64,000 bases of DNA from assembly GCF_019649055.1 (NCBI RefSeq), contig NW_026570285.1, positions 1 to 64,000 on the forward strand, in the 5' to 3' direction. Made by a program: the position numbers and the translations under genes. Of this stretch, positions 1,635 to 29,314 are shown in pieces; the first letter of the stretch is position 1, and every line of letters starts with the position of its first letter. Source of the DNA: Paramacrobiotus metropolitanus. Lineage: Eukaryota; Tardigrada; Eutardigrada; Parachela; Macrobiotidae. A model generated the notes under the pieces. It saw only the letters and a list, made by a program, of their open reading frames with translations. It had not been told where the DNA came from and did no database searches.

Positions 1635-1915
1635 TTATGGTCGACCTGTGTGGTCGGCCATAATGTCGATTTCTCGTTAGTCGGCTACCATATACTTAGT
1701 CGATCTGTGTGATCGGCTGAGGTAGCAAGTCGTGGTTCGGCAATTTGCATCGGTGCGGTTCCGACTTCAACTCTCTGAACAATTCGTTCCGAGTTCCCAA
1801 AACCGATCTCTGTGATCGGTTTGCACAACCGACCTTTGTGGTCGGTTAGTGCCGCGGTATCCGTTATGTCTCCAAGTTATAGGTAAAGTACGGAGTCGAC
1901 CTTTGTGGTCGACTC
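1635..1915 (-). repeat. Cluster of five long ACANA-loop hairpins
   Basis: Plus-strand coordinates and stems: 1635-1663, 12 pairs (TTATGGTCGACC arm, one T-G pair); 1695-1721, 11 pairs (two T-G pairs); 1801-1821, AACCGATC/GATCGGTT; 1827-1847, AACCGACC/GGTCGGTT; 1893-1915, GAGTCGACC/GGTCGACTC. Loops are TGTGT, TGTGT, TCTGT, TTTGT and TTTGT. This is noncoding sequence, so no protein constraint explains them. Confidence 0.85.
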
Positions 1916-2413
1916 AAGTACATGTAGTCGAATCCGAGTTTTCTTGCGCTGTTGGCAGCTCGGCCGAGGATATCCGCTGTTTTACACTGGTGAAGGCTGC
2001 TCGGCTACCCGGTTCCGAAGTTGGCCACGGGTGCTGGCGAACATGGCGATGAACACGCAGCGACGTATTCAGCGCCATGTTAGCGTAATCCTCTCGGTCT
2101 ATGCTCCGGAGTCGGTTGGCCGGAGTAATCTTCGTAGCCGGTCGTGGTTAATGGTGTGATCTGTACCATGTAACTATCGGTCGGCTCCATGTAACGCGGA
2201 TTGGGGCTTCTGTTGGCTCCGATGGTCGCAGAACGTGGTTGTCGATCTGCTATGTTAGCAGATGTGGTTCACGATCTGTTCATGCCATGCTGGGGAACTG
2301 AGGTCGATTTGCTCAGTTCTGTCCAGGGGATTCCTCGGAAGACGTACCGGAACGGTGGAAAAAGCCGGCTTGTCAGGTCTAACCACTCGTGTCCGAGTCG
2401 AACCGAAGAATCC

Positions 2414-2434
2414 GGCTGACTTGTGTAGTCAGCC
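2414..2434 (-). repeat. ACANA-loop hairpin, 8 bp
   Basis: GGCTGACT, loop TGTGT, AGTCAGCC on the plus strand. The closing pair is T-A instead of the usual C-G, yet the loop is unchanged. Confidence 0.7.
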
Positions 2435-2655
2435 TTCTGGCGAAGTCGTCGTTGACGTCCGCTGTGTACATGGTTGGTCGGTTTCTGTAAAAAAACTAAA
2501 GAAAAGTGTCCATTCCGAAGTCGTTTCTCGACGGTGCTGTTTCTCAGCTAGACTGGTTCTCAGTCAGGTCGGTTCTCGACCGTGCCGTTTCTCGGCGTTA
2601 AGTCCCCTTAGTTTGTTCCGAGTGGGGGATCGAGTTCCAATGTGGGAACTCGATC

Positions 2656-4284
2656 TTAACTGAGTGGGACTTCGACGGGTTTGTCGCCGCCGAAGTAGTC
2701 GTCTTCGTCTTCATCATCCGGGCCAGGTCGGTTATGTGGCCGGATAGTCGGATCCTTGGGTTTACAAGTCGCCGGGCCACTCCGTTGAGACATCTCGTCG
2801 GTCTCATCCGTTTCTTGGCCGAGGCGATCCGCTCTGCCCTTCTTCGATTCCCTGGCCGCCTGTTTGCGGAGCCGCAGCGCATACGGTCGTGCGCCGGGTG
2901 CTATGTCGTCCGACATCCAAGGTTCGTAGGGCGATGAGTTAAATCCACTGGGCAAAGTCTTCTTCTGTCGGTACCAGCTGATAAATCTGGTCGCGTCGTC
3001 GCTGGGATCTATGTGCTCCTCACGAAAGACATACTTTGTCGCATACCGTTCGTGGGTGTACAGCAAGTCGCGCATCCAGATGGCGAGGATAACACTTCTC
3101 ATTGGTGTGCCAAGTTGGGCGACGAGGGTTTCCAAAGCCGCTGGTATCATTTCGTTCTGGTATAGGCCATACAGGGTGTAATGGCAAAAGTAATTGCCGA
3201 GCCGAGCTGCGAAGATGAATCGCAGGAATGCTGTGACTCCGTCCTGGGCCATATCAACTTCCCCTTCTGGAAGGTACTGGGTTAAGTCCAGTGCTGCCCG
3301 AGCCGCGGTTATTACAAAGGCTGGGTGGGCGTCCGTGATGACGAACTGGGCAATACTCTCCAACTCGTCATGGGGGTATTCCCGAGCTCCTAGTTGGCTC
3401 GCACGCGTTCCGTCCGGGCTGTAAAGTGGTACGTTCAGCAAGACCGGGTCGGTCATCGACGGTAACGCATTCGATCTGGTGTACGGATGTTCAACATTCT
3501 GTGCTGTGTGCGCAGACATGTTGAAGTCCGGTTGCCACTGATGTTGTTCCAGCAGCGTCTGGTATCCGGATCGGACGAGGAATTGGCGAAGGTTTTCTAC
3601 CATTCGCCAAACTTGTGGTCGATTCCGTTCCTCGTAATTCATGACGTTCATAATGTGATTTGTTCGTTCGGTGGGATGTAGCATGACGACCTCGATTCCT
3701 TGTTGTCGAGCGCGGTCGTAACGAGGATCTTCTCGGATCGGCACTTCTACTTGTGGTAGTTGCGCCATCTGGTCGGCTACTTCGACGTCCATTTGTTCCG
3801 GTTGAGCTGCCAGTTCAGCTTGGACTTCGGCCGCCGGTTCCGCCTGATGGGCTTCCGGCTGCTGTTCGGGTGGGACAAAGTTACGTTTCGACTTATTTGT
3901 TAAGTCGACCGTAAGTCCGATTCCCGTTTCTCCAGATCCAGTCCGTTTTCCTGGTGGAGGTCTGGTCGGCTCTTTTCCGACTTGTCGGATGACTGCTCGT
4001 TGCTCTTCGATTCTGTCTCGAAGATCAACAGGACCAATCCTATGTCGGAGGTCGTGTCCCGCTAAGTTTTTGCTCGGTCGGCGTTGCTGCTGTTGAGCCG
4101 CCGGTTGAGTCCAATTTCCATGTTGGGGGATCTGCTGAGAAACAGTTGGACGAGCCTGTGTGACTACTGGCGTTGCCCTGTGTGGGATTGCCATCAACTG
4201 TTCCTGAGTCGCCGGGGTAAGGGTAACCGGCTGTTGGGTTCCGTCCGGCATGTTCATCATCATCGTTACTGTTGCGCTAGTCAT
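2656..4284 (-). CDS. ORF6, unknown 542-residue protein
   Basis: Starts at ATG 4284, stops at 2656. Residues 1-190 are Gln/Pro/Glu-rich and disordered. Residues about 195-480 look globular, with many aromatics and hydrophobic helices (VMNYEERNRPQVWRMVENLRQFLV, FLRFIFAARLGNYFCHYTLYGLY, VILAIWMRDLLY). The C-terminus is basic, then acidic (DDEDEDDYFGG). The FIFAARLGNYFCHYTLYGLYQ stretch is hydrophobic but holds Arg and is more likely a buried helix than a membrane span. It is the last ORF before the 3' noncoding region. A capsid-, matrix- or accessory-type role is possible; I recognise no family. Confidence 0.75.
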   Translation of the reverse strand: MTSATVTMMMNMPDGTQQPVTLTPATQEQLMAIPHRATPVVTQARPTVSQQIPQHGNWTQPAAQQQQRRPSKNLAGHDLRHRIGPVDLRDRIEEQRAVIRQVGKEPTRPPPGKRTGSGETGIGLTVDLTNKSKRNFVPPEQQPEAHQAEPAAEVQAELAAQPEQMDVEVADQMAQLPQVEVPIREDPRYDRARQQGIEVVMLHPTERTNHIMNVMNYEERNRPQVWRMVENLRQFLVRSGYQTLLEQHQWQPDFNMSAHTAQNVEHPYTRSNALPSMTDPVLLNVPLYSPDGTRASQLGAREYPHDELESIAQFVITDAHPAFVITAARAALDLTQYLPEGEVDMAQDGVTAFLRFIFAARLGNYFCHYTLYGLYQNEMIPAALETLVAQLGTPMRSVILAIWMRDLLYTHERYATKYVFREEHIDPSDDATRFISWYRQKKTLPSGFNSSPYEPWMSDDIAPGARPYALRLRKQAARESKKGRADRLGQETDETDEMSQRSGPATCKPKDPTIRPHNRPGPDDEDEDDYFGGDKPVEVPLS

Positions 4285-5051: not shown

Positions 5052-5492
5052 TCACTCCCGTGTCGGTGCTTCTGTCGACTCCGGCCGACTTGCTTGGTGC
5101 GAGTCAGCCAACTCGGTCGGTTGTGCCGAGGTGGATCGTTCCTTCGGTAAGTGTCCGTGCCGGTGAGTTGATGGGTTTAAGGCGATGAACCGTTGGCCGC
5201 CCTGGACTTTATCGGTGTTCGTGGCAAATCTTTGTTGGTAGAGTGCCTTCGATAAGACGAATTCCAGTTCGTCTTCCAGGGAATACTTCTTGCGTCCGGC
5301 GATTACGTCCGGTTTGGCCTTGTATTTAGGGTCGACCAACTGCGGTTCTGCTGCTGTCCACTCGAACTCAAACCGTGCTGTAAGTTGGTGGAGTATTTCT
5401 CCACGGGTAAGTCCGTCGGGATGCCAGGACATTTCCATACACGCTTCGATGGCGTGTGTCCATCCTTCATATGTTGAAGGGGCCGGGTCCTT
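5052..5492 (-). CDS. ORF4 continuation (part 5, -1 frame), C-terminus
   Basis: Opens after the TAA at 5495 and reads naturally from about 5480 (W-rich, then helical: LTRGEILHQL, YSLEDELEFVLSKALYQQRF), ending at 5052. The join to part 4 fits one missing base in GGGG at 5479-5482. If all joins are real, ORF4 would span 14723-5052, about 3200 codons, among the longest single ORFs known for an LTR element. Confidence 0.55.
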   Translation of the reverse strand, partial: KDPAPSTYEGWTHAIEACMEMSWHPDGLTRGEILHQLTARFEFEWTAAEPQLVDPKYKAKPDVIAGRKKYSLEDELEFVLSKALYQQRFATNTDKVQGGQRFIALNPSTHRHGHLPKERSTSAQPTELADSHQASRPESTEAPTRE

Positions 5493-6190: not shown

Positions 6191-6757
6191 TCACCGGCTT
6201 AGTCGACTTCGTCTTTGTCGATTTCGACTTTCCTTCTGTTGGGTCAAGTCTTCCGGTTCCGGCGAAATTTCCATAGGCGAGGACGGCGGGAGTGACTGTA
6301 CGTCCCTCGGAATGAACCGTCCTTTCGCGCTCCTAGTCGGTTTTGCCGTACTTGCTCGTCCCCCTGGAGCTGCTGCCGTGCCGACATATGTTGTCGGTTC
6401 ATGGGGTGCTCGAGGTCGGGGTAAGACTTGGACTCGTCTTTGTGACGACTGTCCAGCCGTACGAGCTATATGCAGCAAGGCGGCTGCATCCTCCGACGGT
6501 TGTTCGTTGGAGTCGCTGTATTCTTCGGTAGGTTCCGTGCCAGCCGGAGGCTTGTCCGTGTTGACGTAAGACATCCGGAGGTTAAACTCACGCCGATGTT
6601 GTTCCGGTATGAAGTTAGGCACGGTATACCGTACCGGTACGTCGCGTTCCGCATTGGTCGTCTGGAGGGTGTGTTGTTCGACCAAAGACGTAATCCGGTC
6701 GCTTATCCTATCCGTGATGATTTCGTCGATGTTCCCTTCTTGTCCATGTACATCACG
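6191..6757 (-). CDS. ORF4 continuation (part 3, -1 frame)
   Basis: Open from the TAA at 6760 to TGA 6193-6191. The overlap with part 2 is 55 bases, and the frame change fits one missing base in CCC at 6734-6736 (plus strand). It encodes a short helix rich in Ile/Asp/Arg, then an Arg/Pro/Ser-rich tail. The same frame continues beyond the TGA into part 4, so the TGA either is a nonsense change or is read through. Product unrecognised. Confidence 0.5.
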   Translation of the reverse strand, partial: RDVHGQEGNIDEIITDRISDRITSLVEQHTLQTTNAERDVPVRYTVPNFIPEQHRREFNLRMSYVNTDKPPAGTEPTEEYSDSNEQPSEDAAALLHIARTAGQSSQRRVQVLPRPRAPHEPTTYVGTAAAPGGRASTAKPTRSAKGRFIPRDVQSLPPSSPMEISPEPEDLTQQKESRNRQRRSRLSR

Positions 6758-9700
6758 TTATATACACGGGCAATCTGGACCAAAGTCGATCCGCGGGGAT
6801 TCCTACTGTATCCGATGCACCGTGCAATTCTAGTCGGTGTATCGTCCGCATTCCTGGCGGCTGCACTTTTGAGTGCCTTGATGAGGTCCGGTGGGAGCAG
6901 TTCGGCCGTCCGTCCCCATTGTCGGTGAACGGCTACTGCTAATCCGAAATCCAAAGTCCAGGCGACGATCTGCATCATGAGTTGATGCGTCAACCACTTT
7001 CCGGTTTCGCCTCCGACTTGGATGTTGTTGGACAGGTCTCGGACCAAGGACTGGTAGATGTCCACGCCGTTTTTCCTGGCGTTTTCGATGCTCCTGACGA
7101 CTTCGACGTGTACTCGGACGGTACGGATTAATGTATCGACCGGGTCATCCGGCTGTTCGTCCGGAAGGCGCTCGCGCACATCGTCTGGGGCTGGCCACTG
7201 TGATTCATCAGTGTCCGCTCCATGGTCGAACATTTCTTTCAGGTCGCCTTTAAATCCTTCGTAGGGGTCACCTTCTCCATGGTCGGAGATTGAGTCCTTT
7301 TCCTCAATGTCCGAGATCTGATCGGATTCCACGTCAGACTGTTGCTTGGATGTGGAGGGCTGGGGTTGTTCGGTCGGAGTCGGCGGTTTTGGTGGGTTCC
7401 GTAGCCGACCTCCTGAAGTCTTAGCCGGCTTTGTGCCGGTTCGCTCCATGACTTCTTTGAATTTACGCTCCACCGCCTCCTTGTCGTGCGGTTGTTGAGC
7501 CTTTTCCTTCTGCTCGGTCCTTTGTGGGCCGGCATCCGAAATATCCAAGTCATCGGATGACTTATGCCGCTTGGCCGGATTAGGCTTCGGCGTCTTTACC
7601 GTAGAGTCCGACTTCGGTTTGGTCGTCTCTTTGGCCTCCGACTTTACTGGTTTCTTCTGGGTTTCCGTCGGTTGCGGCTTAGCGGATTGTTTCGCTGCTT
7701 CCTTCTTGGCCTTCCGTTTATCCTTGTGGGATTTCGCGGAATTGGCCGAGTTGATGACCCGTGTGTCCAGATCTTCGTCGATCTGAACGGAAGGTTGTCT
7801 GGCCGGAGGGGGACTTTCATCTTGACGGGTTGCTGTGCCGTCTTCTTGGTCGACTTGGGTTCCGGAGCGGTGACTTTATGTCGAGTCGGCGTAGCCGCTT
7901 GTAGGGCTTTAGGTCGACTCTTTTCCGCTCGGTAATGTTCTCCCATACGTTTCATAACGTCGGCCATCTTCTCGGTAAGTCGGTCGTGGTCGCGCCGAGC
8001 TTCCGTGGTGTTTCCGACTATGCTGGCACGTCGGATTCTCAGCGAGTGCCAGAGTTCCCTATCCTCCGGGTATGCCATGTCGATGCAGGCATCCTGCTCC
8101 GACCTTGTCAAGTCCTTTACATGTTGTAAGGCTGGGTCGTCATGGAATTCGCGCGATGAGTCCTGAGGTGGTTTCTCCTTAGCTGTACTTCGTTTGGTCG
8201 GTATGTTTACCGATTCCTTTGCCGACTCGTTCGTTCGAGACTCGTCAATTGTTAGACGTGGGCCGGAGTGTATCGAGGTCGGTTCGTCCCTTTGTGGTGA
8301 CGTTTCGACCGTTGTTTCGACTCGCGCTTCCGAAGGGGATGTTGTGTCCATCGCGTCTTCGGTTTTCTTCGGTTTCGTCGGAGTATTCCGAGGTGTAAAC
8401 CTGAGTGGTTTCTCCATTGTCGGTTGACTCGGCAGCTTAGTCGGCTGGGATGCTGATCGGGTCGGCGAAATTTGTTTTACCGGCGATCTGCCTCGTTTCG
8501 GCGTGAATCCCTTCGGTGGTGCCTCTGCCTTCTGTTGAATAGAGTCATCGGAATCGACGTTGTCCGCATTCTCCTCATCTTCACTACTATCCGACATTGT
8601 TATCGGAATCTTCTCGGTTACCTCTTCTCCGGGCCGAGGTTGGATTTCCAGCGTGTAAGCGCCCGGGTTGATGCTCGGATTGCGGAGACGTTGGATCGTC
8701 TGGATCATGTTAGAGTCCAGCGGGAGTTGTCGTAACTCCTGCTTTCCGCATCTTAGAGTCACCAACCGTCGCAGGACTTTGTCCCTATCCTGGATCGTAG
8801 CATGGATCTTCTGGGCCGTCTGAGTCTGTTGCTCGTCCGTCATGGTCCGATCTCGGATACCTCCTTGAAGTTGTGCTTCGTAGAGTATCCGTTGAAGATC
8901 CAACGTTTTGGCTTGGCTGACCAACTTCTTGTGGATGCCGGGAGTAAATAAGGCCTTCGCTCCCATCACTTTCCGTGACGGGCTCGGCTTCTCTTCAGCC
9001 GGTGGTAGGGAAGACGGAGTCGCCTTCAGAATTTCCAAGAGTCGTTCCTTGGTCCTGACTGGTGATGGCGACTTTGACGGGAAGAGACGCCTGCGTGGAC
9101 CGTGCTCTTCAATGTTGTCCGTCAGTTTCGGCTTCCTAACGAATTTCGGTGAGTTTGATCCGCCAGGTTGGAGGACGAGTCGACCGTCAGGTGTTCGTTC
9201 ACTCTGCGGTTCTCTTTGTGAGAGCCCAGGTAACGTTGTCGGTCGTTCAAGGGGCTTAGGTCGGCTAGCTTCTGTTGTTCCGACTTCCTCCGACGTGTCC
9301 ATCGGTTCGTCTTCGCCTTCGAGTCCTGGTACCGGTACTTCGTCCATCGGCTCGTCTTGGTGACTCGCCGGTGGAACTACCTGTGTCGGTTTGACAGGTT
9401 GTACCTTAGGCTTTTTGGCGGAGGGCGGCCTCTTCGGCTTACGTTGCTCTTCCGCTTCCTTCCGCTTGTAGAAGTCGTCTACGAAGGACTGAATCATGGC
9501 CGTCAGAGTTTGCAGCCGTTCCTGATTCTTTACCGACCACACTGTTGTTGGTCGGAGGATAAATCGGGCTTCCTTGGCGTTGTTCTCCAAGTGTCCGAGA
9601 TTGATATCGATCTGACAGTATTGCGGACTCCGTTGGTCGGTTTCGTCCATCATCTTCCGAAGTTCGACGATGACAGCGTCCGCTCGCAGTAACTGTGTGT

Positions 9701-12700
9701 TAACTGCTTTTACCCATTCGAGGTCGGGTTTGGCTGGCGGGGCTGGAGGTGGAAGTCGGACAGAATCAAAGCTCGGTTTCCGAGCCGACTGGATCTTTGT
9801 GATCCGAGACGGCCGACCTTCAACCATGGCGTTTGTTGCCAGGTTGGTCGATTCCTGTTCTTTGTCCCGTTCCTTCTCCTCCTCGTACTCGTTTACCCTT
9901 GTTTCCAGCCATGAAGTCGTTCGGATTAGGTGTTGTCGAGTCCTGGTCGTCTGTGGGGCGTCCGGATGACAAAGTCGTCGTATGAACCGGGCATTGTTTC
10001 CCCACGCCAAGATATCTCGATCCAAATCATTCGCTTCTTGGCTGTTATCTTCACAGAAGTTTCTGCGGGCTCTCATCTCTGTGATGAGTTCCGCTACTCT
10101 AGCCAATAGTTTGACTATATGTGGCGCGACCGTACTCGGCAGTTCGTCCGTGTCCGGTATGGCTTCCATGATCCGAGCTTCTGTGGCCGGAGACATGGGC
10201 CGATCGGCCATTTCCATCGGTTTCGGTTGGGCCAAGCCTGCTGTTGAGGTCGGCTGAGGTTGAATCCGAGCTGTTGTCGAAGTCGGCTGACTCGAGGTGT
10301 TCGGTTGTTGCGAACCGGATGCGCGTTGTGCCGCTTTCCGTTGTTCCTCGAGTTCCTTTCGCCGTAAGATTTCAAGGTCGGTTTGCACGTCCTGAATGTG
10401 CACCTGGGAGACTCTAATTTGGTCTTCGATTGCCGTCCGAATGTCACGGATGGTCGGATCTGTTCCGTCCATGTTATCAACTTGGCGTTGCAAGCTGTCA
10501 GCAATCCTTCGTGTACGAGCCAACTTGTCGTTAAGGGCTTCACGCTTTTCTGCCAATGTGGGCTCGAGCGGTTGTTGCGAAGCAGTCGGCTGCGGTTGAC
10601 TAGGGGTCGGCTGAACCCTTTGTGGGTTAGCCTCTAGAATTTTCCACAAGTCTTCGACCCGCCTTGAGCAGATGCTGTACTGCTGATCCAAGGCATCGCG
10701 CATTTGCTTCTCCATGGCGTTATTCGGGTCGAGTTCCCGGAGTTGTCTTCCGAGCTTCTCCATGACGTCGACCGCTTCTCGGTACTGGTTCTCAGCTTCA
10801 CCGATGTCGACTGCCTTTGGTTCGGCTGCCTCGGCGAATGGGAGTTCGACGTCCAGTCCAGGTGATGGGACTGGGGAGGGTATTTTCTCACGAGCTGGTA
10901 CTGGCGCTCCCGCTTTGTTCGGGTTTGCCAAGTACTGTTTGACATGATCGATCACCGACTGAAGTGCTTCAATTAGCCGGTCCCGGTTCGGACCTGGCGG
11001 TGGGATTCCCCATGAGCCTAGGGTATCGGCCCAATCCAACTCGAGTCGTAGTGCTCGGTCGATCCGGGTGAGGTCGGTTTCCTCTTGTTCCGTTAGGGTT
11101 CCACTAAGTCGGTGGTGAAAGATGTCGGCTAAATCCTGTCCGGCCTGTGAAATTATGTCCAAGTTACCGGGCAAGTTCTCCATTGGGGTCGTGCCGACTA
11201 GGGTCATCACCGCTGTCGTAGTCGGTGCTGCTCGGCGAGGTGGCGACGGCGTGGCAATCCGAGTGTACTCGGGTTCCGCGTTGAGGATCTCTGTGATCCG
11301 CTCAACTACCGACCTGAGTTGTCGTTCGTCGACTTCGGTCGGTTCTTCCTTGCGGAGTAAATCGTCTGCCTTTTTCAAGTAGGCTGTCAGGTCGTTCATC
11401 TTCTGCCGTGCCACTCTCAGAGTTTCGCCGTCCGTTGGCGTGTTTTGTACGAACGTTCGCTGGAGGTCTTCCAGTAAGTCCCATCCATCGCTGATTATGG
11501 AGGACATCTTTTCCCTGCGGCTTTTCCGCATTGCCGAGTGCATCTCCGCCGCCGATGAGGTCGACGGTAACGCGTCCGAGGTTTCCGTGTCAGAGTCCTG
11601 TGGTCGGTGTTGACCCCGTGACTCTGGTCGGCGTTGGCTTCGGCTATATTCCCGCAGCTGGTTTATGCCATTCATTACGAATTGGAAATGAACTCCCGGT
11701 TCGACCGTGCCTGGTTGTATCAGGTTCCTCACAAGTTGTATGTGAGTGGCGAACTCGGAAGTTATCCTCTGCACGTTCGGCTCGAGTCCTCTTTCGGCGC
11801 GTTGCTGAATCCGTTTAAGGATGTCTTCCGCCTCCTGTATAGCGGATCCGCCGTAGAGGATTATCCGGTCGGATGATGGAGATTTCGCCGTTACGACCTG
11901 TGTGGTCGTCGGCGGAGGCGATGATATCGGTGAAGTCACGACGGCTCCCGGTAGTAACGTCGTCGGTTGGACGTTATCCGTCAGTAAGGACGGAAGTTTC
12001 TCCGCCGAGATAGCCGTCTTCACCTGATCCATAACTGTTCGGAGTCGGTGTTTGTCCACCTCTGTGGTGGGCAAACCGTACCGAGTAAGATCTTCAGTTA
12101 GCCCTATGTGGGCTATGAGATCGTTAATTTTCCGAACCGGATCGAATTCGGTGGAATCTCGGATTCCGTCGGCTATGCGTCCGTAGATTCCTTGGAGGGC
12201 TTCTTTGCCATCGAGGATGGTTTTCCAGACTTCTGTCGTCTGGTCATCCTGTCCGATCTGAAATGCCATCGCATGGTACCGGGGCTGGGGAACCTGTTGT
12301 TCGGCTCCTCCTGTTTGGCTCTGGATTATCTGTCTAATCCTCCGGTAATGCATGTTTAGTCGAATGGCCTGATCGTCTGTGGTTATGCCGCCGTCCTGTT
12401 CGGCAAGTCTGCGGGCGATCCGTAAACTTCGGTAAAGGTCGTTTACCAATGCTGCTCTGTTGGTTACGGCGATCAAGTCTCCGCCTTGCGTCATCCTCAC
12501 TTCGTCGAGGATTCGATCTCCCGTTCGGATAGCGGCCTGTACCTCTGCCAATGTGGGCATTTGTACAGCTTCTGACCGACGTTCGGCTGCGTCCAAGTTC
12601 TGGGCAAGCTGTGGATACAGGTTAGCTCGGTTCTGAGCATTCCGTATCCTGTTCCGGATTGCGTTCAGTAATTCCAGATTTGTCGGCATTCCGGTCGTTA

Positions 12701-19687: not shown

Positions 19688-19690
19688 TTA
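19688..19690 (-). promoter_or_regulatory. In-frame TAA between protease and pol, candidate readthrough site
   Basis: Protease and pol frames are identical; one TAA separates them and the codons after it run on as LKALWEF. No ATG occurs near the start of pol. About nine bases downstream TTGTGGG can pair with CCCCCAA with one mismatch, enclosing a small CGGAA/TTCCG hairpin. Context TAA-CTC is not a known strong readthrough context. A nonsense mutation is the alternative. Confidence 0.4.
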
Positions 19691-22486
19691 GTCGAATTCC
19701 TCCTGTTGTTCGGAGTCGACTGGCTTGGGCCGTTCGGTTTGTTCCGGTTGCTCGTCTATGAATTCTGTGTGAACTATAGACCGCAATGCTGTAGTTAGCC
19801 GGACATCGTAGGTCGGTTCTTCGTCCTCCGATGACGAATCATCCGAGTCGTTTATGCTCGGTTTATCCGTCTTACAGTGTCGGACTGACAGATCGAATTC
19901 TTCGTCGTCATCTTCCTCGGATTCTTCCGAAGGTCGGTTATCGGAGTCTGTGTCCGCCGAATCACTCGTACTTTGTATGTCCGAGTCGTCCGACTGATAA
20001 TCTTCGAATTCGACTTCCGATCCGTTTTCGGGGTCGACTTCTGGCATGTTTTCGAATCCGACCTTTGTGGTCGGTTCGAGTTGGTCGACTTTATCCGTCG
20101 GTTGGGTAGGTCGACTTGCTCCGTCCTGATTCTCAAGGTCGGCTGGCTGTGAGCCTATGTTGCTCAGCCATCGGGTGCTCGTCTGTTGGGGCTTCCGAAA
20201 GCGATCTACCTTCCGTTCCTGTTGCGGAGGCGACGGTGACGACGGTCTGTCGTCCGACCAAGTTAGGTCGTGATGAGCTTTTATTGCTCGTACTACCTCG
20301 TCAATATTGTCTTGACAGATAGCACACCGATAAGGTTGATCGGTTTCCTCCGGGACTACGTTTCCTTGAGGCTTCGCCGGGCTACTCGCAAACTTCACGT
20401 CGGTTGGAGTGTGCGGCATAAGTGGTGGTAACGGTCTAGGGACTTGCCGCGTTATGGCGGTGTCCTCACCGTACCGTTGCCAAAATGCAGTCGTTGACGA
20501 TTCTCCGTGCAACCTTACTCGCTGCATGTAGGCGAAAAGTTGAGAGCCTAGTTCCTGGCAAGGCATCTCCAGCGGGGATGGTATAGGGAGTCCGTATTCC
20601 ATGTACTGTCGATGGATCGGAATTCGTTCCTCTTCCCATTCCCATGCTTCGTCCTCTATGTCGTTTGTAAGGGCGATTACCGGTTCGCACGTTTGTTGTG
20701 CGTCCAGTATCTGGTCGGGGGTTACCGCTCCGTTCTGTTGCAGAGTGGTCACTATCTCCGACGTCCGTTGGTCGAGAAAGTGTCGAACTCCCGTGAACCA
20801 AGTTCGGTACTTTTGTCGTACTTCCTCTCGGTTCATGGCATCCGCGTCAGCGGATGCCTCTGGTATCGGGATAGACTTCAGTACAGTCCTAGCCGGTCGT
20901 AGTGTACCGTCGCGTATCCGTTTCTGATAGTGCTCTATCACGTTATGGAGTGCTAGTTCCTCCAGCAGAGTGCGGTTCGTATCCCGGCAATCGCGGCAGA
21001 TGTTACGTGTGGAGTTCGCCGGGTGATCAAGCCGACTAATCCGAACTTCGTTTCCTACCGTGTCCGATGCCTCTGGTATCGGGATAGACTGCACTACCTT
21101 CGTTCCTTCTGGTTGTTCCGGGATAGGAATCGGTGTCAGAATGAAGGTGAATTTCGAATGCAGGTAGTCGCATCCGAGTAGCACTGGGATGTCCGCTTCG
21201 GTTGGCTGGACGTGGAAAGTGTGATGGCTAGTAAAGCCCTGCATTGTGACAGGTGCCGTACAGCAATGAGACACTACAAAGGCGACTTGTCCGCCCACAC
21301 CGAGTATTTTGGTGTAGTGTCCGAGAGGTTGCATCGTTAAGCCGTTCCTCTCGCAAAACCGTTGTTCGATGAGCGAGGTTTCCGCTCCGGTATCCAACAT
21401 CGCCAGTGTGGGCGTGGATCCGACTTGGATTTCGTGTGTCCAAGCTCGAACTGTCTTCGGTTTCTTGTGTGTTCCTTTCTCAAAGGTAACTTCCCGCACC
21501 GTTGGTTTGATGGGGATTAACGACACCGGTCCGTGGTCGGCTGGCTGTTGAGTTGAACCTTGTGTAGGTTCAACTCCGACTTCAACCACTTCTTGTACCT
21601 CAGGTCGGTTAGCTACTCCGTCCTCCGGTATTTCGGCGGTTCCGAACCGTTGTGCCTGTGCCAGTATCCGTTCCTCCATCGAGACTTCCGTTGGTCTCAA
21701 TGTCGACCACATGTAGTCGAGGTTGAGGAATGTTCGAGAGCCAGCTACCGTTCTGGTCGGCTGCTCCTTTGGCTGGGAGAGGTCCGCTTCCTCCGGCCGA
21801 GAGTAGGCGGGTACCTGTGCTCCCAATGGGACTGTTTCCCATTGCTCGAATCCTTCCGGTTCTTCGGTAAGGTCGATTGCTGCCATTGTTGCAGCGTATC
21901 TATCCGTTGCGCGTCCGGATGATACATTGGGGAAGTTTCTGTTGCCCCGGTGCGTGGATCGGCGTCCCGGTCCTCCACGTCTTGGGCCTCGTCTGGGCTG
22001 CTCGGTTGAGTTTGTCCTCACCGGCAATCCGGTCCAACTTCCGTGGCCGGGCCGTACTACGTCACTTTGTGTGACGGACGGCGCAGTCGCATTGTTTGCG
22101 CTGCTTAGGTCGGGCAATTCCTGCGTTCCGACCTCCGACGTTCCAGCGCCAAGTTGATGCGCTGGGTCGGTTGCCTCGAGTGCCTGTTGCATCCCGGGCC
22201 AAGCTTCGACGGTGCCATTGTTGGCGTACACGCCGAGCTGAGCGGCTAACTTCCGAGCCGTTTCCGCCTCCTTTGTGGAGGTCGACATCGCTTTTGCGAA
22301 ATCCTCCTCGGAGCTGTTTTCGTTCAGTCCGAGTAGTTGGAGGATGGTTGCTACCTGTTGATAGCCTTCCTCGATCGTCGTAGGAAAGTTCAATTCGTTC
22401 CGGTAATTAAGCGATTGGTTAGTCGGATTATCCTTGTCCGGTGGTTCGGTCGGATGTTGGAGGTCGAATGAGTCACCGGAGCTCAT
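19688..22486 (-). CDS. pro: Protease ORF (retropepsin), -1 frame to gag
   Basis: 932 codons, ATG at 22486 overlapping the gag stop, though the frameshift probably makes a Gag-Pro fusion. The retropepsin core lies near residues 330-440: the active-site motif is LDTGAETSLIEQ at about 366, followed by a LLGCDYL strand that matches the usual second-lobe motif. Flanks are unusual: a CxxC...H region at about 498-520, another CAIC...H at about 720-740, and an acidic C-terminal tail of about 110 residues with DSDS/EEDDDEE runs. The phrase SIPIPEAS occurs twice, from a 25-bp direct DNA repeat. Typical retroelement proteases have about 100-130 residues, so most of this ORF is accessory and unrecognised. 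Two family hairpins lie inside it. The same frame continues into pol after a single TAA. Confidence 0.85.
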   Translation of the reverse strand: MSSGDSFDLQHPTEPPDKDNPTNQSLNYRNELNFPTTIEEGYQQVATILQLLGLNENSSEEDFAKAMSTSTKEAETARKLAAQLGVYANNGTVEAWPGMQQALEATDPAHQLGAGTSEVGTQELPDLSSANNATAPSVTQSDVVRPGHGSWTGLPVRTNSTEQPRRGPRRGGPGRRSTHRGNRNFPNVSSGRATDRYAATMAAIDLTEEPEGFEQWETVPLGAQVPAYSRPEEADLSQPKEQPTRTVAGSRTFLNLDYMWSTLRPTEVSMEERILAQAQRFGTAEIPEDGVANRPEVQEVVEVGVEPTQGSTQQPADHGPVSLIPIKPTVREVTFEKGTHKKPKTVRAWTHEIQVGSTPTLAMLDTGAETSLIEQRFCERNGLTMQPLGHYTKILGVGGQVAFVVSHCCTAPVTMQGFTSHHTFHVQPTEADIPVLLGCDYLHSKFTFILTPIPIPEQPEGTKVVQSIPIPEASDTVGNEVRISRLDHPANSTRNICRDCRDTNRTLLEELALHNVIEHYQKRIRDGTLRPARTVLKSIPIPEASADADAMNREEVRQKYRTWFTGVRHFLDQRTSEIVTTLQQNGAVTPDQILDAQQTCEPVIALTNDIEDEAWEWEEERIPIHRQYMEYGLPIPSPLEMPCQELGSQLFAYMQRVRLHGESSTTAFWQRYGEDTAITRQVPRPLPPLMPHTPTDVKFASSPAKPQGNVVPEETDQPYRCAICQDNIDEVVRAIKAHHDLTWSDDRPSSPSPPQQERKVDRFRKPQQTSTRWLSNIGSQPADLENQDGASRPTQPTDKVDQLEPTTKVGFENMPEVDPENGSEVEFEDYQSDDSDIQSTSDSADTDSDNRPSEESEEDDDEEFDLSVRHCKTDKPSINDSDDSSSEDEEPTYDVRLTTALRSIVHTEFIDEQPEQTERPKPVDSEQQEEFD
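20052..22281 (-). repeat. ACANA-loop hairpins in the protease ORF
   Basis: 20052-20079: TCGAA-t-CCGACC/GGTCGG-TTCGA, loop TTTGT, 11 pairs. 21550-21576: GAGTTGAACCT/AGGTTCAACTC, loop TGTGT, 11 perfect pairs. 22060-22076: CGTCAC/GTGACG, loop TTTGT. 22267-22281: CCTCC/GGAGG, loop TTTGT. A further TTGTT-loop version is in gag at 24355-24371. Confidence 0.75.
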
Positions 22487-22504
22487 CGACCTTGGGCGTT
22501 TCCC
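22437..22504 (-). promoter_or_regulatory. Programmed -1 frameshift signal: slippery site plus pseudoknot
   Basis: The gag frame reads G GGA AAC at 22504-22498, a canonical XXXYYYZ heptamer. After a 6-base spacer (22497-22492) comes stem 1: GGTCGATGAG (22491-22482) with CTCATTCGACC (22472-22462), ten pairs with one bulge. Its loop bases TCCGGTG (22480-22474) are fully complementary to CACCGGA (22443-22437), giving stem 2 of an H-type pseudoknot with an 18-base second loop. The -1 frame after the heptamer is exactly the protease frame. Heptamer, phase, spacer and pseudoknot all agree with retroviral gag-pro signals such as that of SRV-1. Confidence 0.88.
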
Positions 22505-25500
22505 GGGGAGTTACTCCGAGCTGGCCCGTTGTTGGGCGACGCCAAGCCGAAAGGCTGATGTGGCGGTAACTGTTGCCGCCGTTCCGGAGATCCCTGTTGA
22601 CCTCCACCGCTATTCCTGCGGTTGCTACCCGACCCATTTCCTGGGCCGGTTTGCCGGTTTCCGTTACCGGCGCCGCCCGAGCCTCCACCTTGTTGGCGTT
22701 GGCGCGGGGGCGGCACGACCAGTGCATAGTTCGGGTTGGCCGATCCCAACGGTCCTCCCGTCTGGTATCGCGTATGCCAATCCTCGAACCAACGGCGATT
22801 CGGGTTGTCCTGTACCCGAGTGCCGATGAACGCACATCGTGCTTGGTCGTGATTGCTGAACTTGCAGAAGTTGCAAGTAAAGCTGTCCGCTAACGACCAT
22901 TGGAGGAACAGTTGTTCCATCCGGTCCACGTAGGTCGTGTATTGCCGAGCACTTTGTTGTGCCTGGGGAGGTCGGTTCCCTTGTTGGTTGCCGCCTCCGC
23001 CGCGGTTAGGAAAGTTGCCGCGACCGCGTTTTCCGCCGCCACGTCCTTTTCCGCGACCGAAACCTCCGCCGCCATATCCCTGTGTGGGAGGTGGGCCGTA
23101 TGCGGAGTATCCCTGGTTCGGGTTCTGTCCGTAACCAAAACCTGTGTTGTTTTGGTTACCGCCCGGACCATAACCTGGGCCTCCGTAGTTGTTAACGGGG
23201 GCTCCGATTCCAGGTGCCGGGGGGTTCAGGTTTGCTGCCGCCGCGCTCGACCAAGTCTGTTGCTGGACTGGTGCTTGTTGCACCGGTGGCGTCGGCGCCG
23301 GACTCCGTTGTCCGTACTGTGCCGTTGGAGTTTGGTATCCCGGCATCATATGCGGCTGATATCCGGTCTGTTGCGGTATCGCCGGAGGTGGAGCCGGGGC
23401 AGGTGCAGGTGTTGCTGCCCGGACTCTGGCATAGTCGCCATCGCGTTGTCTGCGCACCTCATACATTTCCTTGCCATTGACGAAGCTCCGTAAGTAGTCG
23501 CGGAACTCGATTGGTGTCGCTGGCATCCTGATTTCCAGGGCTTCCCGTAGTTTGGGTTCGTGGACGTTCTCCTTGAGATGGTACATTATTATTTGATCGG
23601 TGATCGTAGGGACTTGGGACTTCATGAACATCATTGCGTCGTAGTATTGTTCCGGCGTTTCTTCGCCGAAACGAAATATCCGTTTGTTAATTCGGGATAT
23701 CATGTTCACTTCTTTGTTCTTGTCCGCAAATCGCTGTTCGAATTTGGTCAGCCATAAGTTGACTGGCCATCCGCCGAGCGGTTCTCCGGCGGCTTCGAGA
23801 GTATGCCACTCTTCCGCTTGGCCCTCTAGTCGGGCTACCAAGTCGGACATGAAAGTCTGATCGTCTTCGTACCACTGTTGGGCTTGACGATACAGGCTCC
23901 GGATCTGTTTAAGCCACCCATGAAGTTTGGTGTGGTCTCCGTCGAACGGCGGTAAGGGTTGCCGGCGTCCGTGAGATATTGCTCGTACCAAAGCAATATG
24001 TGCCGGGTCCTGTGCCGGAGGAATCGGGTGTGCCACCGGCGCAGCTTGTTGTGCAGCCGGGGCAGGTGGCGGGTTGGCATATGGTACGTGACCTTGTTGG
24101 TCTTCGTATGCCCCCTGTTGATAGGCTTCTTCGTCGTAGCCGTCGTATTCGTCCTGTTGCGGATACCGAACCTGGGCCTGGTCTTCATGACGAGGCCGTT
24201 GTGGTTGTCCTCTATGCTGTTGTGGAGGGGGCGCTCGATTTTGTCTCGGCGCCTGCGGATAGAATCCACTCGGTTGGTCGTAGACTCTTCCGTACCGGTT
24301 GGGCTGTGTTCCCTGAACCGGTATCCGACCTTGTATTAGTCGGTGTGGGGGCACCCGACCTTGTTGGTCGGAGCTATCCTCTCCGTTCTGTCCGTCCTGC
24401 CGCTGGTCGGTCGTGTTGAATGACCGAGCCCTCGCTCGTTCAAAGTCGAACGGCGGGTTCTGGCGGAGGAAGTTCGGATTGGAGTTCGTCCTTGGTGGGC
24501 GATATGCTTCTATGCCCGGTCTCAGTGGCGGGACTGGGAGACGTTCGGCATCTGTTGCCCGGTCTCCTCTCACGTTAGGTACCGGCGCGTACGTTGTTGT
24601 CCGCGTCGCGTACGAGGTGCTGGTATATGCACCGGCAGACGTCGTTGTCGCCACGTTCGACGTTGGCACTCGCGGTGCCGCGGTCGACGTATTGTGTTCC
24701 GGTTCCGGAGCAGCCGGAACTGTTGGTGGTTGTGGGATTGTTCCCACGCTTGGGTCGGTCGTTACGACTCCGACGAAGTAGGAGGTGTTGTTCTCCTTCC
24801 TCGCCATCTCCTTGGTCGGACTAACTCCCCACAGGATGTCACTGATTGTTCGTGACGGCTGTTGATCCTGTGCCATGGACGTCCGATATGAAGGAGGTTC
24901 AACCCGGCTTTGTTCCCGGTATGGGGGAAGTTCGACCTGGCTTTGTTCCAGGTGCTTCTTCTCTTCCCTCAGACACCGTGTTTCCGTGTCCATCTCGTCC
25001 ATTTGCCGCATCATCTCTGTGAGATTGCGGGCGGCTTGTTCGCCGAAGTCGTATAGTTCGACTTCGCGAGCTTCCAGGTAAACGATGCGGCTGTGTTGCG
25101 CCTCGTTTACCTTTCGAGCCTCGTTCAGGTTGTACTCCAGTTGAGCTCGGAGTTTCTGTTCCTCCTTGAGGACTTGGTTCAGTCCATGAACCTGGTCGGC
25201 CAGCTGGGCGTTTGCTTCGACCAAGTCGACATCGGCTGTCCTTTGGTTAGGAAAGCCCATGTCCCGGGCGTTCGCGTCGATAAATCGACGGCCCGTTCTG
25301 ACGAGGAGGAGTTCCATTTCCGACTCAAGTTCGTCGGTTCGTTGCGTTAGACGGTCGATCTCGTTATCGGCCTTCTTGAGTTCCACCACGTATCTATCGA
25401 CTTCGTTTCGATAGACCTCGGCTTCTTCGTTGGCCTGGTTGAGTTGCTGGTGGAACGCTCCTGCTGCCTGTTCCGACTCGACCAGTGCGGTCTGAACGTC

Positions 25501-26184
25501 GGCCAGGTCTTTCTGTGCTTCTTCGAGCGCTTTGTGCGCCTCGTCAAGCTCCTTTTTGATTTCGAAGACGGCTGCTGTTGACCGTTCCAACATGCCAGTA
25601 AGTATGGCAATTTGGTCGTCTTCGTATCGACACGGTAAGTCGGCTCGCTTCAATATGGCGTTGAGCCGGTCGATTTCCCGTTGTTGGGTGGCGATGCCCT
25701 TGTTGGCATCAGCCATGTCTCGTTCCCATTTCCTCCGTTCGAGTTTATGGGTGTCCTCCGAGTTTCGGAGGGATCCTTCTGCCGAGTCGACGATTTTGTC
25801 CGCCAAAACGATCTGTGTGATCAGTTTGTGGCATCTCGCTCGGAGTAGGTCGAGATCGTTGATCTTCTCGGGCGGTGTTGCCGCGATCCACTTCTTAGCC
25901 GTGTATTCGAGTGCACTGGCTTGGTATCCGAGGTTCTCCTTATCGGACTTGGGTGGTGTCGTAAAGAATCCGTCCGCACTACTCGGTCTTGATGCGTTTG
26001 TTGCCTCAAAGACTTCGTTTGTCGGTGACGGAGTACTCCCAAGTTCGCCAGTTCCGAACATTGGTGGTGACACCCTTAGGTTCAGGTCGACAGGTCGACT
26101 TTGTGTCGCCTTAGTCGACTTCACCGTTTGTTGAGCTTCGGTTGCTCGGGTCGACTCGCTTCCAGTTGGCGAAGGTCGGCTCAA
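22483..26184 (-). CDS. gag: Gag polyprotein
   Basis: 1233 codons as bounded here; the frame is open further upstream to 26335, and the first clear ATG is at 26061. Residues about 100-415 form a long heptad coiled coil. About 430-720 is Pro/Gln/Tyr-rich. About 728-910 is a retrotransposon_gag-type helical capsid domain (PPFDGD, then W-rich helices, FEQRFADKN). About 990-1070 is Gly/Arg-rich (GYG and RGG repeats), followed near residue 1100 by one CCHC zinc knuckle, CX2CX4HX4C. The order capsid, RGG, knuckle fits RNA-binding nucleocapsid work in virus-like particles. The large N-terminal coiled coil is unusual for Ty3 Gag, which normally has 250-500 residues. The stop overlaps the protease ATG as ATGA, and a frameshift signal lies just before it. 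Confidence 0.88.
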   Translation of the reverse strand: MSRPSPTGSESTRATEAQQTVKSTKATQSRPVDLNLRVSPPMFGTGELGSTPSPTNEVFEATNASRPSSADGFFTTPPKSDKENLGYQASALEYTAKKWIAATPPEKINDLDLLRARCHKLITQIVLADKIVDSAEGSLRNSEDTHKLERRKWERDMADANKGIATQQREIDRLNAILKRADLPCRYEDDQIAILTGMLERSTAAVFEIKKELDEAHKALEEAQKDLADVQTALVESEQAAGAFHQQLNQANEEAEVYRNEVDRYVVELKKADNEIDRLTQRTDELESEMELLLVRTGRRFIDANARDMGFPNQRTADVDLVEANAQLADQVHGLNQVLKEEQKLRAQLEYNLNEARKVNEAQHSRIVYLEAREVELYDFGEQAARNLTEMMRQMDEMDTETRCLREEKKHLEQSQVELPPYREQSRVEPPSYRTSMAQDQQPSRTISDILWGVSPTKEMARKENNTSYFVGVVTTDPSVGTIPQPPTVPAAPEPEHNTSTAAPRVPTSNVATTTSAGAYTSTSYATRTTTYAPVPNVRGDRATDAERLPVPPLRPGIEAYRPPRTNSNPNFLRQNPPFDFERARARSFNTTDQRQDGQNGEDSSDQQGRVPPHRLIQGRIPVQGTQPNRYGRVYDQPSGFYPQAPRQNRAPPPQQHRGQPQRPRHEDQAQVRYPQQDEYDGYDEEAYQQGAYEDQQGHVPYANPPPAPAAQQAAPVAHPIPPAQDPAHIALVRAISHGRRQPLPPFDGDHTKLHGWLKQIRSLYRQAQQWYEDDQTFMSDLVARLEGQAEEWHTLEAAGEPLGGWPVNLWLTKFEQRFADKNKEVNMISRINKRIFRFGEETPEQYYDAMMFMKSQVPTITDQIIMYHLKENVHEPKLREALEIRMPATPIEFRDYLRSFVNGKEMYEVRRQRDGDYARVRAATPAPAPAPPPAIPQQTGYQPHMMPGYQTPTAQYGQRSPAPTPPVQQAPVQQQTWSSAAAANLNPPAPGIGAPVNNYGGPGYGPGGNQNNTGFGYGQNPNQGYSAYGPPPTQGYGGGGFGRGKGRGGGKRGRGNFPNRGGGGNQQGNRPPQAQQSARQYTTYVDRMEQLFLQWSLADSFTCNFCKFSNHDQARCAFIGTRVQDNPNRRWFEDWHTRYQTGGPLGSANPNYALVVPPPRQRQQGGGSGGAGNGNRQTGPGNGSGSNRRNSGGGQQGSPERRQQLPPHQPFGLASPNNGPARSNSPGNAQGR
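25807..25828 (-). repeat. ACANA-loop hairpin in gag
   Basis: AAAC-GATC, loop TGTGT, GATC-a-GTTT on the plus strand: eight pairs with one bulge. A weaker one (TCCC/GGGA, loop TGTGT) is at 23077-23089. Confidence 0.6.
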
Positions 26185-26312: not shown

Positions 26313-26798
26313 CCGACTTTGTGTCGGCTGGTTACCGTTCCGAGCTAGTCGGTTGCTTGTTGCCGACTTCCTCTTCTCCGACCTCTGTGGTCGGCGGCTG
26401 TTGTCCGACCTTTGAGTGTGGCGAAATCCTTCCGACCTGTGTGGTCGGTTGGACGTTGCCGACTTCTGTTGTCGGTTTCTCCATTCCGTTCGAGGTCGGT
26501 TGTCCGACCTCTTTCGTTAGTGGTAGGTCGACCTTCGGTTGGTCGACTTCCTTTGCTGAGGGCTGGTCGACCATTTGTTGGTCGGCTTCCCTAGTCGGTG
26601 ATTGTTTACCGACTTCTTTGGTCGGAGATTTTCGCTCGACCTGTGTGGTCGGCGATTTCCGTCCGACTTGGTTAGTCGGTATGTCCATGTTGGACGAGGT
26701 CGGCTTCGGCACTTCTTCCGTCCTGTTGGGTGATTGCCGTCCGAGCTCGGTGGCCTTTGTGACCGTTACCGAGTCTGGAGCTCTGTGTGAGCTCGACT
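26313..26798 (-). repeat. Dense cluster of stem-loops just upstream of gag
   Basis: Family-loop hairpins: 26313-26327 (CCGAC/GTCGG), 26378-26394 and 26432-26448 (CCGACC/GGTCGG), 26632-26655 (nine pairs, one bulge), 26772-26798 (GAGCTC/GAGCTC plus outer AGTC/GACT). Between them lie relatives with changed loops or a mismatched closing pair: 26459-26475, 26527-26547, 26567-26585 and 26663-26679. That is about one hairpin per 50 bases, the highest density in the window, at the position where retroviral packaging signals lie. Confidence 0.75.
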
Positions 26799-27066: not shown

Positions 27067-27195
27067 ATTCGCACGCCGAGAATAGTCGGTGTTGAACTTT
27101 CTCGCGTATTCGTTTTTCTCGGGGATTCGACATTGTTGTCGAATCAGGTCGGCTCTGGTGGAGCCTTAAAGGTTTTATTAGTTAAAAGGAGAAAA

Positions 27196-27225
27196 TCGAA
27201 CAATCTTCTGTGTGAAGATGTTCGA
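27196..27225 (-). repeat. ACANA-loop hairpin in the leader, 12 bp
   Basis: Plus strand TCGAAC-a-ATCTTC, loop TGTGT, GAAGAT-GTTCGA. Twelve base pairs with one bulged A. The stem sequence is unlike the CCGACC type, yet the loop is the family loop, so the loop, not the stem sequence, is what is conserved. Confidence 0.7.
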
Positions 27226-28217: not shown

Positions 28218-28327
28218 CTCACCAGCTGGGTGAGAATCACTTCAGTGATCCTCGTTTTCCTCAGCTGTAAGACGGCAAGATCAGTCCGATCAAAGTCAAG
28301 GCAGAGATTGCTTCAGCAATCTGTCTG
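28218..28327. other. Three stem-loops beside the primer binding site
   Basis: 28218-28234 pairs CTCACC with GGTGAG around a 5-base loop. 28232-28253 pairs ATCAC with GTGAT around loop TTCA, with an outer GAG/CTC. 28302-28327 pairs AGATTGC with GCAATCT around TTCA, with an outer CAG/CTG. The first two overlap by three bases and may be alternatives. A further TTCA-loop hairpin (ATCCGC/GCGGAT) lies in the LTR at 28734-28749. Confidence 0.45.
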
Positions 28328-28410
28328 ACAGTGACTTTCAAGTTCCTCACGAGTTCTCCGTAGATGAAGCCTTCACCGTCTCCTCAAAGGTTCCGTAGGA
28401 AGGAAAACCA

Positions 28411-28428
28411 GAAAAGATGCTGCTACCA
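28411..28428 (-). other. Primer binding site, initiator tRNA-Met type
   Basis: Sense strand begins TGGTAGCAG immediately after the LTR end CTGTTACA. The 3' end of eukaryotic initiator tRNA-Met is ...CTGCTACCA, so nine bases pair exactly; the following bases do not match the vertebrate or fly tRNA as I know it. Position next to the LTR edge is what a PBS needs. Confidence 0.5.
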
Positions 28429-29314
28429 TGTAACAGACAAGCACGAGGAGATCACGAGTGATGCTTTATTGACAAAATAAAGGGGGAACAATGCTGCGTA
28501 ATAGCAGGAAAGCAAGAACATAGCCGTGATGGCCAAGCAAGTGTGTGCTAGAAAAGCTCTTGAGCGTCCGTCAAGGCGTGAAAGAAGCAACTGGCGGCAA
28601 GCACGTGCTGTGTGCCATCAGCTGTGTGATGATGCGCAGACTGGACTCTATCCAACGCGAGCGTATGAACGCTGAGTCATACTGCGAGAGAGGAACGAGA
28701 GAGCAAGTGTGGCTCAGTGTATGCGCTGCGTATATCCGCTTCAGCGGATGAGTGCAGTGCAGCAGCACACGTATGTACAGCGAGAGAGGTGGTAACGGCA
28801 AGCAATGGTGCAAGTACGTCCTGTGTGGACCGTACGCACCAGGCGCAGTCGTACGCCTCTGACAAGCCATACCGCGACAAACGTCAAGTTATATTACGCT
28901 TTATTCTTCTAGCAGACTGTGTATAAAAATTGTAGATCGTGTACGATATTTTTTCTGTGGTGCGAAGCGGGAACTGCAGTCTGGCTCGATGGCGAACATA
29001 TTGAATGTAATGATTTCTGGCGCAATCAGATTAATTATTTTCTTCGCGGGTTGCCACTTGATGTGACGTGCAGCTCCCTTTTTATTACGATATCACCTGG
29101 TGCTTTGATGATTTCAATGATATGCGCATAATTCGCTCAGCCTTCTCTTTCATTACGTTTCAAAGTTAGTTGGACTACACAGTTTATATTGACTCGGTGT
29201 TATTCTGTGCAAAGCGTAGTTACGGCTCATTTTTGAACGATTCACAGCTTGGGGCGCGTTCAAACGATGCGTTGTGACCTTTCTTTGAATCTGTGTATCT
29301 GCATTCATGTTACA
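28429..29314 (-). repeat. Probable 5' LTR (886 bp)
   Basis: Read on the plus strand the segment starts TGTAACA and ends TGTTACA, a perfect 7-bp terminal inverted repeat with the usual TG...CA ends. The left edge directly abuts a primer-binding-site-like sequence. In the sense (minus) direction an AATAAA signal lies at 28470-28465, about 40 bases before the LTR 3' end. CTCAT at 29315-29319 could be the 5-bp target duplication, but its partner is outside the window. The second LTR copy, which would prove the call, is not visible. The right boundary is the weaker one. Confidence 0.5.
28814..28835 (-). repeat. ACANA-loop hairpin inside the LTR
   Basis: Plus strand GTAC-GTCC, loop TGTGT, GGAC-C-GTAC: eight pairs with one bulged C. 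It shares the loop of the hairpin family of the internal region, which supports 28.8 kb belonging to the same element. Confidence 0.5.

Follow-up and report, generated by a model that had tools for sequence, protein, structure and literature searches.

A selected family of fixed-loop hairpins in a predicted Ty3/gypsy retrotransposon of the tardigrade Paramacrobiotus metropolitanus

Why would a retrotransposon carry dozens of hairpins with one and the same loop along its length, and in which strand do they fold? The question is raised by a 64,000-nucleotide (nt) stretch of P. metropolitanus DNA (contig NW_026570285.1, positions 1 to 64,000 of the forward strand; hereafter the window), of which positions 1-28868 hold an element that, judged from its sequence, is a Ty3/gypsy long terminal repeat (LTR) retrotransposon with its genes on the minus strand. 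A first-pass annotation had described about 30 dispersed stem-loops here, with variable stems and a nearly invariant loop. We find that a family of about 45 such hairpins is real and under selection, and the stem changes among copies of the element point to the plus strand as the one that folds.

Census of the TNTGT hairpins

We scanned the 64 kb strictly for perfect hairpins of the form N(>=4)-TNTGT-N(>=4), the loop of which reads ACANA on the coding strand. The plus strand has 45 hairpins with at least four pairs, all within 717-28830, and the minus strand has one. Within 1-29000, the plus and minus strands have 30 vs 0 hairpins with at least five pairs and 19 vs 0 with at least six, and the window outside the element has none on either strand. 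The number and single orientation first reported are thereby confirmed, while the left end of the family moves from 1635 to 717. The predicted excess over dinucleotide-shuffled sequence is also found: shuffles made in 1-kb blocks (200 each) give means of 0.8 hairpins with at least four pairs (maximum 3), 0.21 with at least five (maximum 2) and 0.04 with at least six (maximum 1). Synonymous-codon shuffles of eight open reading frames (ORFs) give a mean of 0.9 and a maximum of 3 (n=200), compared to 19 hairpins observed.

The TNTGT word alone is not enriched (237 occurrences vs a mean of 228 in 20 shuffles); a compositional surplus of the word is therefore rejected, only its placement in hairpins being enriched. 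The loop is as exact as had been claimed. With one G·T allowed and at least six pairs required, 33 of the 237 T.TGT words lie within hairpins, compared to 0-2 for each single-base neighbor word, and altering any one fixed loop base abolishes the hairpin signal. When every 5-nt loop with at least five pairs is tallied on the coding strand, ACANA accounts for 30 of 80. Sites do occur throughout the element, as the first-pass annotation stated, but gag, pol and the LTR have 4-pair hairpins only. The hairpins with at least five pairs are clustered, with spacings from 26 to 7959 nt. A second class has TNTGT inside 7-nt loops, with a non-Watson-Crick inner closing pair (17 sites with at least four further pairs). 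The 45 perfect hairpins are as follows.

717..739, plus strand, 9 pairs, loop TGTGT, 3' noncoding region
1642..1656, plus strand, 5 pairs, TGTGT; the outward extension, TGGTCGACC/GGTCGGCCA, has one T·G
1701..1715, plus strand, 5 pairs, TGTGT; CGATC/GATCG to CGACC/GGTCG compensated, CGATC/GGTCG (T·G) in other copies
1800..1822, plus strand, 9 pairs, TCTGT; ATC/GAT to ACC/GGT in some copies
1827..1847, plus strand, 8 pairs, TTTGT
1893..1915, plus strand, 9 pairs, TTTGT; C-G to T-A compensated in copies
2414..2434, plus strand, 8 pairs, TGTGT; some copies have C-G for T-A together with an insertion, several others lack the hairpin
3888..3908, plus strand, 8 pairs, TTTGT
5464..5480, plus strand, 6 pairs, TATGT
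6381..6397, plus strand, 6 pairs, TATGT
6434..6448, plus strand, 5 pairs, TTTGT
7425..7439, plus strand, 5 pairs, TTTGT
9791..9805, plus strand, 5 pairs, TTTGT
10072..10088, plus strand, 6 pairs, TCTGT
10614..10628, plus strand, 5 pairs, TTTGT
11285..11299, plus strand, 5 pairs, TCTGT; copies have GGATC/GATCC, GAATC/GATTC and GGATC/GATTC (G·T)
11893..11909, plus strand, 6 pairs, TGTGT; most of 23 rows have a G·T variant
12056..12070, plus strand, 5 pairs, TCTGT; 11 pairs when extended, GTTTGTCCACC/GGTGGGCAAAC, with one T·G
12099..12115, plus strand, 6 pairs, TATGT
20058..20074, plus strand, 6 pairs, TTTGT
21550..21576, plus strand, 11 pairs, TGTGT; G-C to A-T compensated in C3 and C54, partly kept in seven further copies
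22060..22076, plus strand, 6 pairs, TTTGT
22267..22281, plus strand, 5 pairs, TTTGT
26313..26327, plus strand, 5 pairs, TTTGT; CCGAC/GTCGG to CCGAT/ATCGG in one copy
26378..26394, plus strand, 6 pairs, TCTGT; stem or loop missing in most of 20 divergent copies
26432..26448, plus strand, 6 pairs, TGTGT
26568..26584, plus strand, 6 pairs, TTTGT; closing pair A-T or G·T across copies
26637..26651, plus strand, 5 pairs, TGTGT; A-T or G·T across copies
26778..26794, plus strand, 6 pairs, TGTGT
27203..27219, plus strand, 6 pairs, TGTGT, leader; T-A to C-G compensated in C3 and C54
4351-4363, 9211-9223, 9690-9702, 10455-10467, 13533-13545, plus strand, 4 pairs (first five of fifteen)
15154-15166, 16751-16763, 18551-18563, 19105-19117, 23077-23089, plus strand, 4 pairs (next five)
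24547-24559, 25527-25539, 25810-25822, 26096-26108, 28818-28830 (LTR), plus strand, 4 pairs (last five)

Conservation and covariation among genomic copies

Copies of the element were sought in the genome (169.8 Mb, 533 contigs). Four long copies have 25, 25, 28 and 25 hairpins of at least five pairs, although three of them have 2-3 kb gaps in their match to the window. Two partial copies have 11 and 8, and two other stretches fetched for one of these had no hairpin and no listed match. Inverted hairpins are absent from the long and partial copies, and 35 kb of left flanks contain no hairpin. Genome-wide, there are 552 occurrences of the CGACC/GGTCG stem around a TNTGT loop, compared to one of the backward-read pattern; the reversed loop TGTNT occurs 297 times, and nearly all of the matches listed for it are TGTGT, which is compatible with both patterns.

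Across eight copies compared with the window, differences affect 12 of 824 cells (1.5%) at the four fixed loop positions and 137 of 1967 (7.0%) in TNTGT words outside hairpins; the figures are 87/2398 for stems and 386/5968 for 15-nt flanks. At fourfold-degenerate sites, differences amount to 2/103 (1.9%) in loops and 13/263 (4.9%) in stems, compared to 209/2510 at non-hairpin sites no more than 60 nt away and 1519/14722 (10.3%) at all sites outside hairpins. The more divergent copies differ by 6.4% in stems, 6.5% in loops and 13.7% in the rest of the gag region, and by 11.9%, 6.2% and 15.0%, respectively, in the 3' region.

The compensatory stem changes predicted among copies were sought in three alignments of more divergent copies, covering 25950-27300 (21 rows), 1560-2500 (24 rows) and 11220-12170 (23 rows). 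A further alignment (A1), with row L008 wrongly oriented, entered none of the counts. Both sides have changed in 19 of 106 stem pairs, compared to 9.0 +/- 1.9 in shuffles, none of 300 of which reaches 19, and sliding the pairings by 1-3 leaves 2 to 15 both-sided changes. Two series include a wobble state found in other copies (CGATC/GATCG, CGATC/GGTCG, CGACC/GGTCG; and GGATC/GATCC, GGATC/GATTC, GAATC/GATTC), and CCGAC/GTCGG and CCGAT/ATCGG form another covarying pair of states. Among three protease hairpins followed into seven further copies, two are well kept and the 11-pair one is kept in part. Because loops and stems diverge less among copies and compensatory change exceeds that in shuffles, we conclude that the hairpin family is real and selected.

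The strand that folds

In an RNA or single-stranded DNA (ssDNA) hairpin, G·T is tolerated better than A·C, and the two swap when the opposite strand is read. We therefore tallied unique plus-strand hairpins with one internal non-Watson-Crick pair, in plus-strand letters. With inner and outer runs of three pairs, the ratio G·T:A·C:other is 14:1:5; with inner and outer runs of 4 and 3 it is 12:0:3, the twelve coming from about eight separate sites (grouped by eye), and it is 15:5:13 with runs of 4 and 2 and 10:3:10 with 5 and 2. The chance rates for any pair are 0.145:0.098:0.50. Single-side states, compared to expectations from rates outside stems, number 39/53.9 for G·T (0.72), 20/46 for A·C (0.43) and 35/75 for other mismatches (0.47). 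Because plus-strand A·C falls as low as other mismatches, G-U on the coding strand is avoided as much as any mismatch. Additional standard pair types number 63 vs 57.8 in shuffles under plus-strand rules (4/300), and 42 vs 44 under coding-strand rules (280/300), which is no excess. Stem changes in close copies comprise 24 G·T, 7 A·C, 8 other and 3 compensated, against background transitions of 1554 to 1617, and the unique one-sided states of the gag-region alignment are 17 G·T to 5 A·C. Compensation alone is uninformative on the strand, as the both-sided count under coding-strand rules is 17. Folded in isolation, 28 of the 30 hairpins with at least five pairs are more stable as plus-strand than as minus-strand RNA, a comparison made with no shuffled control.

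Since plus-strand G·T wobbles are tolerated and coding-strand G-U is avoided, the folding strand is very probably the plus strand, complementary to the gag-pol RNA, a choice that the first-pass annotation had left open. In single-stranded form, the plus strand is minus-strand complementary DNA (cDNA), or antisense RNA if this is made.

Organization of the element

The order on the minus strand is LTR, primer site, leader, ORF0, gag, protease, pol, a 2359-amino-acid (aa) ORF and smaller ORFs. As in Ty3/gypsy elements, pol carries reverse transcriptase, RNase H and integrase in that order and an aspartic protease is present, the LTRs have TG...CA ends with an adjoining tRNA primer site, and Gag has a CX2CX4HX4C zinc knuckle, a motif spotted by eye in the translation. 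A Pfam search of the gag ORF gave no gag family match. Because the window starts at the contig end, the second LTR lies outside it; four copies were fetched leftward and all four show a matching LTR to the left of the stretch corresponding to the window start, which gives the element a length of about 30 kb.

28429..28864, minus strand, 5' LTR of 436 bp, TG...CA; right end set where several copy matches stop, others reaching 28868
28420..28428, minus strand, primer binding site TGGTAGCAG, adjoining the LTR
22483..26184, minus strand, gag ORF with an RGG-rich C-terminus and one zinc knuckle (by eye); candidate binder
19688..22486, minus strand, aspartic protease ORF
14900..19678, minus strand, pol ORF with reverse transcriptase, RNase H and integrase
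7644..14723, minus strand, 2359-aa ORF with no Pfam or PDB match
2656..4284, minus strand, 542-aa ORF

We take the primer binding site to match initiator Met tRNA. In gag, protease, pol and the ORFs of 2359 and 542 aa, synonymous codon differences exceed nonsynonymous ones (raw counts) in every copy compared, and stops occur in a few copies; no synonymous excess is seen for ORF0 in the codon comparison among copies. A 780-aa public gene model (P0121), compared by eye, opens with the N-terminal part of the 2359-aa ORF and runs on into the 542-aa ORF, which suggests that the accessory ORFs at 2656-14723 may be spliced together. No match was found in phages for the pol part 14900-17800 or in IMG/VR for pol, and no Rfam family reaches its gathering score. 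The coding strand is strongly A-rich over 1-28000 (plus-strand AT skew about -0.2 to -0.38), and the flank differs. A second family (P0004; G000, e.g., C57:701986-707043) has 49% pol identity and at least 28 copies; a search that covered the CGACC stem found no such hairpin up to 50 kb away from its places on C1, C3, C7 and C9.

Candidate readers of the hairpins

We tentatively propose that the Gag nucleocapsid of the element binds the hairpins on minus-strand cDNA. T-G is invariant in the TNTGT loop, and the ACANA loop has no fixed G. In the available parts of two papers, HIV-1 nucleocapsid binds an unpaired G in RNA or DNA, favors a T 5' to it, and binds the primer binding site hairpin of minus-strand DNA, (-)PBS, via the loop CTG (PMC7601788, PMC3380039). 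The T-G loop, this preference and the knuckle and RGG stretch of Gag together lead us to the putative binder. The plus strand would be the minus-strand cDNA that reverse transcriptase synthesizes. Once RNase H had removed the RNA, every hairpin would expose a single unpaired T-G in the loop, to which the zinc knuckle in the nucleocapsid region of Gag would bind. In the particle, many such contacts might then condense, protect or organize this very long stretch of single-stranded cDNA. Still more tentatively, minus-strand cDNA may carry a dispersed structural code, in which dozens of ssDNA hairpins with a common loop are read by the element's own protein, which packs or organizes the 30-kb ssDNA intermediate. 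If the folded strand is cDNA, this would be a sequence-specific organization of a reverse-transcription intermediate and, if true, a packaging-signal system on a DNA intermediate instead of an RNA genome. In that case the hairpins would provide one possible answer to how a 30-kb element handles its nucleic acid.

Several points weigh against this proposal. On the strand, A is rarer than T on the plus strand, and correcting for this by hand raises the expected G·T to about 18/31 in close copies; the 3' alignment is neutral (16 G·T vs 14 A·C among unique one-sided states, 50 vs 70 in cells); and the strand tests share copies and sites and so are not independent of one another. Hairpins 26378 and 2414 are lost in many divergent copies. 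Some loop guanines are poorly bound by HIV nucleocapsid, according to the part of the paper available (PMC3380039), four fixed loop bases make more specificity than we would expect from one knuckle, and there is no established reason for keeping sequence-specific sites on cDNA.

In the main rival, the folded molecule would be an extended antisense transcript of the element, the UNUGU hairpins of which would be bound by a host or element RNA-binding protein with a role in its control, storage or silencing. The strand evidence fits plus-strand RNA equally well, and the stability of the isolated hairpins also speaks for it. We consider this rather unlikely: no plus-strand gene was found in the sole gene-like plus frame (674-1546), and because the hairpins span the whole element the transcript would have to be nearly full length. 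The initial interpretation, ACANA packaging signals in the sense genomic RNA bound by Gag, shares with our reading a selected, structure-dependent family and a plausible binding to an element protein, but its strand fits the wobbles less well. Dispersed stem-loops with a shared loop are a layout known from MS2, parechovirus and others, as far as the sources available go, and the motifs of Gag are those of an RNA-binding protein. Coding-strand G-U is avoided in stems as other mismatches are, however, the 3' alignment excepted, and ACANA offers no fixed G to a zinc knuckle; packaging signals in genomic RNA are therefore less likely than sites on minus-strand cDNA, and in our judgment improbable.

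The hairpins might instead mark where second-strand synthesis on the long minus-strand cDNA is primed or pauses, much as hairpin origins do. This would use the same strand, and a 30-kb cDNA could require several starts. Among the four coding-strand purine tracts of at least 13 within the element, one (26367-26379) overlaps a hairpin edge, and those at 9870-9884 and 13625-13637 lie 65 and 80 nt from a hairpin. Four tracts are too few for 45 hairpins, however, and the hairpins are clustered, making this role very unlikely. Snap-back copying by reverse transcriptase, as a mutational process, could produce one-strand inverted repeats and so perfect stems without function, yet it leaves unexplained the exact loop, the lowered synonymous-site divergence in loop and stem, and the wobble states common to many copies; we regard it as hardly credible. 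Equally implausible is that the hairpins simply accompany a recurring protein motif or the spread of CCGAC/GTCGG repeats. PTTxVG-like peptides do occur in four ORFs, but the loops use all three codon frames (22, 8 and 4 of 34), the hairpins also lie in noncoding DNA and the LTR, and their stems are unrelated, and a protein-repeat origin is rejected on these grounds.

Relation to known systems

CsrA/RsmE target hairpins, which belong to bacterial regulatory RNA, also combine a fixed loop and a variable stem in many copies; the layout is similar and the system unrelated. HIV-1 (-)PBS and cTAR hairpins have a role in strand transfer. These are minus-strand DNA hairpins in which, in the sources available in part, an unpaired G with a neighboring T is recognized, and the loop G with its fixed 5' T in TNTGT, presumably in DNA, resembles them. 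Unlike these single local sites, the present family has dozens of sites over 28 kb. The hairpins also resemble the packaging signals of single-stranded RNA viruses (MS2, satellite tobacco necrosis virus, parechovirus, the hepatitis B virus pregenome) in being multiple, dispersed stem-loops with a common loop motif and variable stems. Dispersed packaging signals sit in genomic or pregenomic RNA in the part of the source available (PMC6281560), whereas here, in an LTR retrotransposon and as known from sequence alone, the wobbles favor the complement of the genomic RNA, the 3' alignment alone being neutral.

In being very long and gypsy-like with extra ORFs, the element is similar to the giant Ty3/gypsy elements Burro (planarian) and Ogre (plants), as described in the available part of a review, but its LTRs are short (436 bp). 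That part of the review reports no dispersed hairpins for Burro or Ogre: both mentions of "hairpin" concern Helitrons, and "stem-loop" does not occur (PMC6431247). It ascribes to Burro a giant polyprotein with BIR, ankyrin, MATH or similar domains (PMC6431247); no Pfam match to Burro-type domains was found at E <= 0.01 in eight minus-strand ORFs and the plus ORF 674-1546 (ORF 6191-6685 was not scanned). A paper on tardigrade transposons covers other species, and the part of its main text available does not mention Paramacrobiotus (PMC11071193). Selected, covarying fixed-loop hairpins across an LTR retrotransposon were not found in searches of the open-licence literature, including that on giant and tardigrade elements, judged by titles and the opening lines of abstracts.

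Other conserved stretches and hairpins in the element

The 290-aa plus ORF at 674-1546 was rejected as an antisense gene, as it has no synonymous excess in six frames and stops in 4/8 copies; a search found no relative. The stretch is 84-94% identical in 39 other places scored, whole or partial, and 1351-1500 differs by only 1.8% among copies. By these sequence comparisons, 674-1546 holds a conserved noncoding stretch.

Perfect hairpins of at least six pairs with other loops are also in surplus within 1-28868: TGT-containing loops other than TNTGT number 26 vs 5.2 in 25 shuffles, and loops without TGT number 85 vs 47.8. These are possibly decayed or other structural sites. The GGATGAAC-TGTGT-GTTCATCC hairpin lies in a 60-nt direct repeat (497-556 and 687-746, 87%) and is imperfect in the first repeat unit, pointing to a local duplication of one hairpin.

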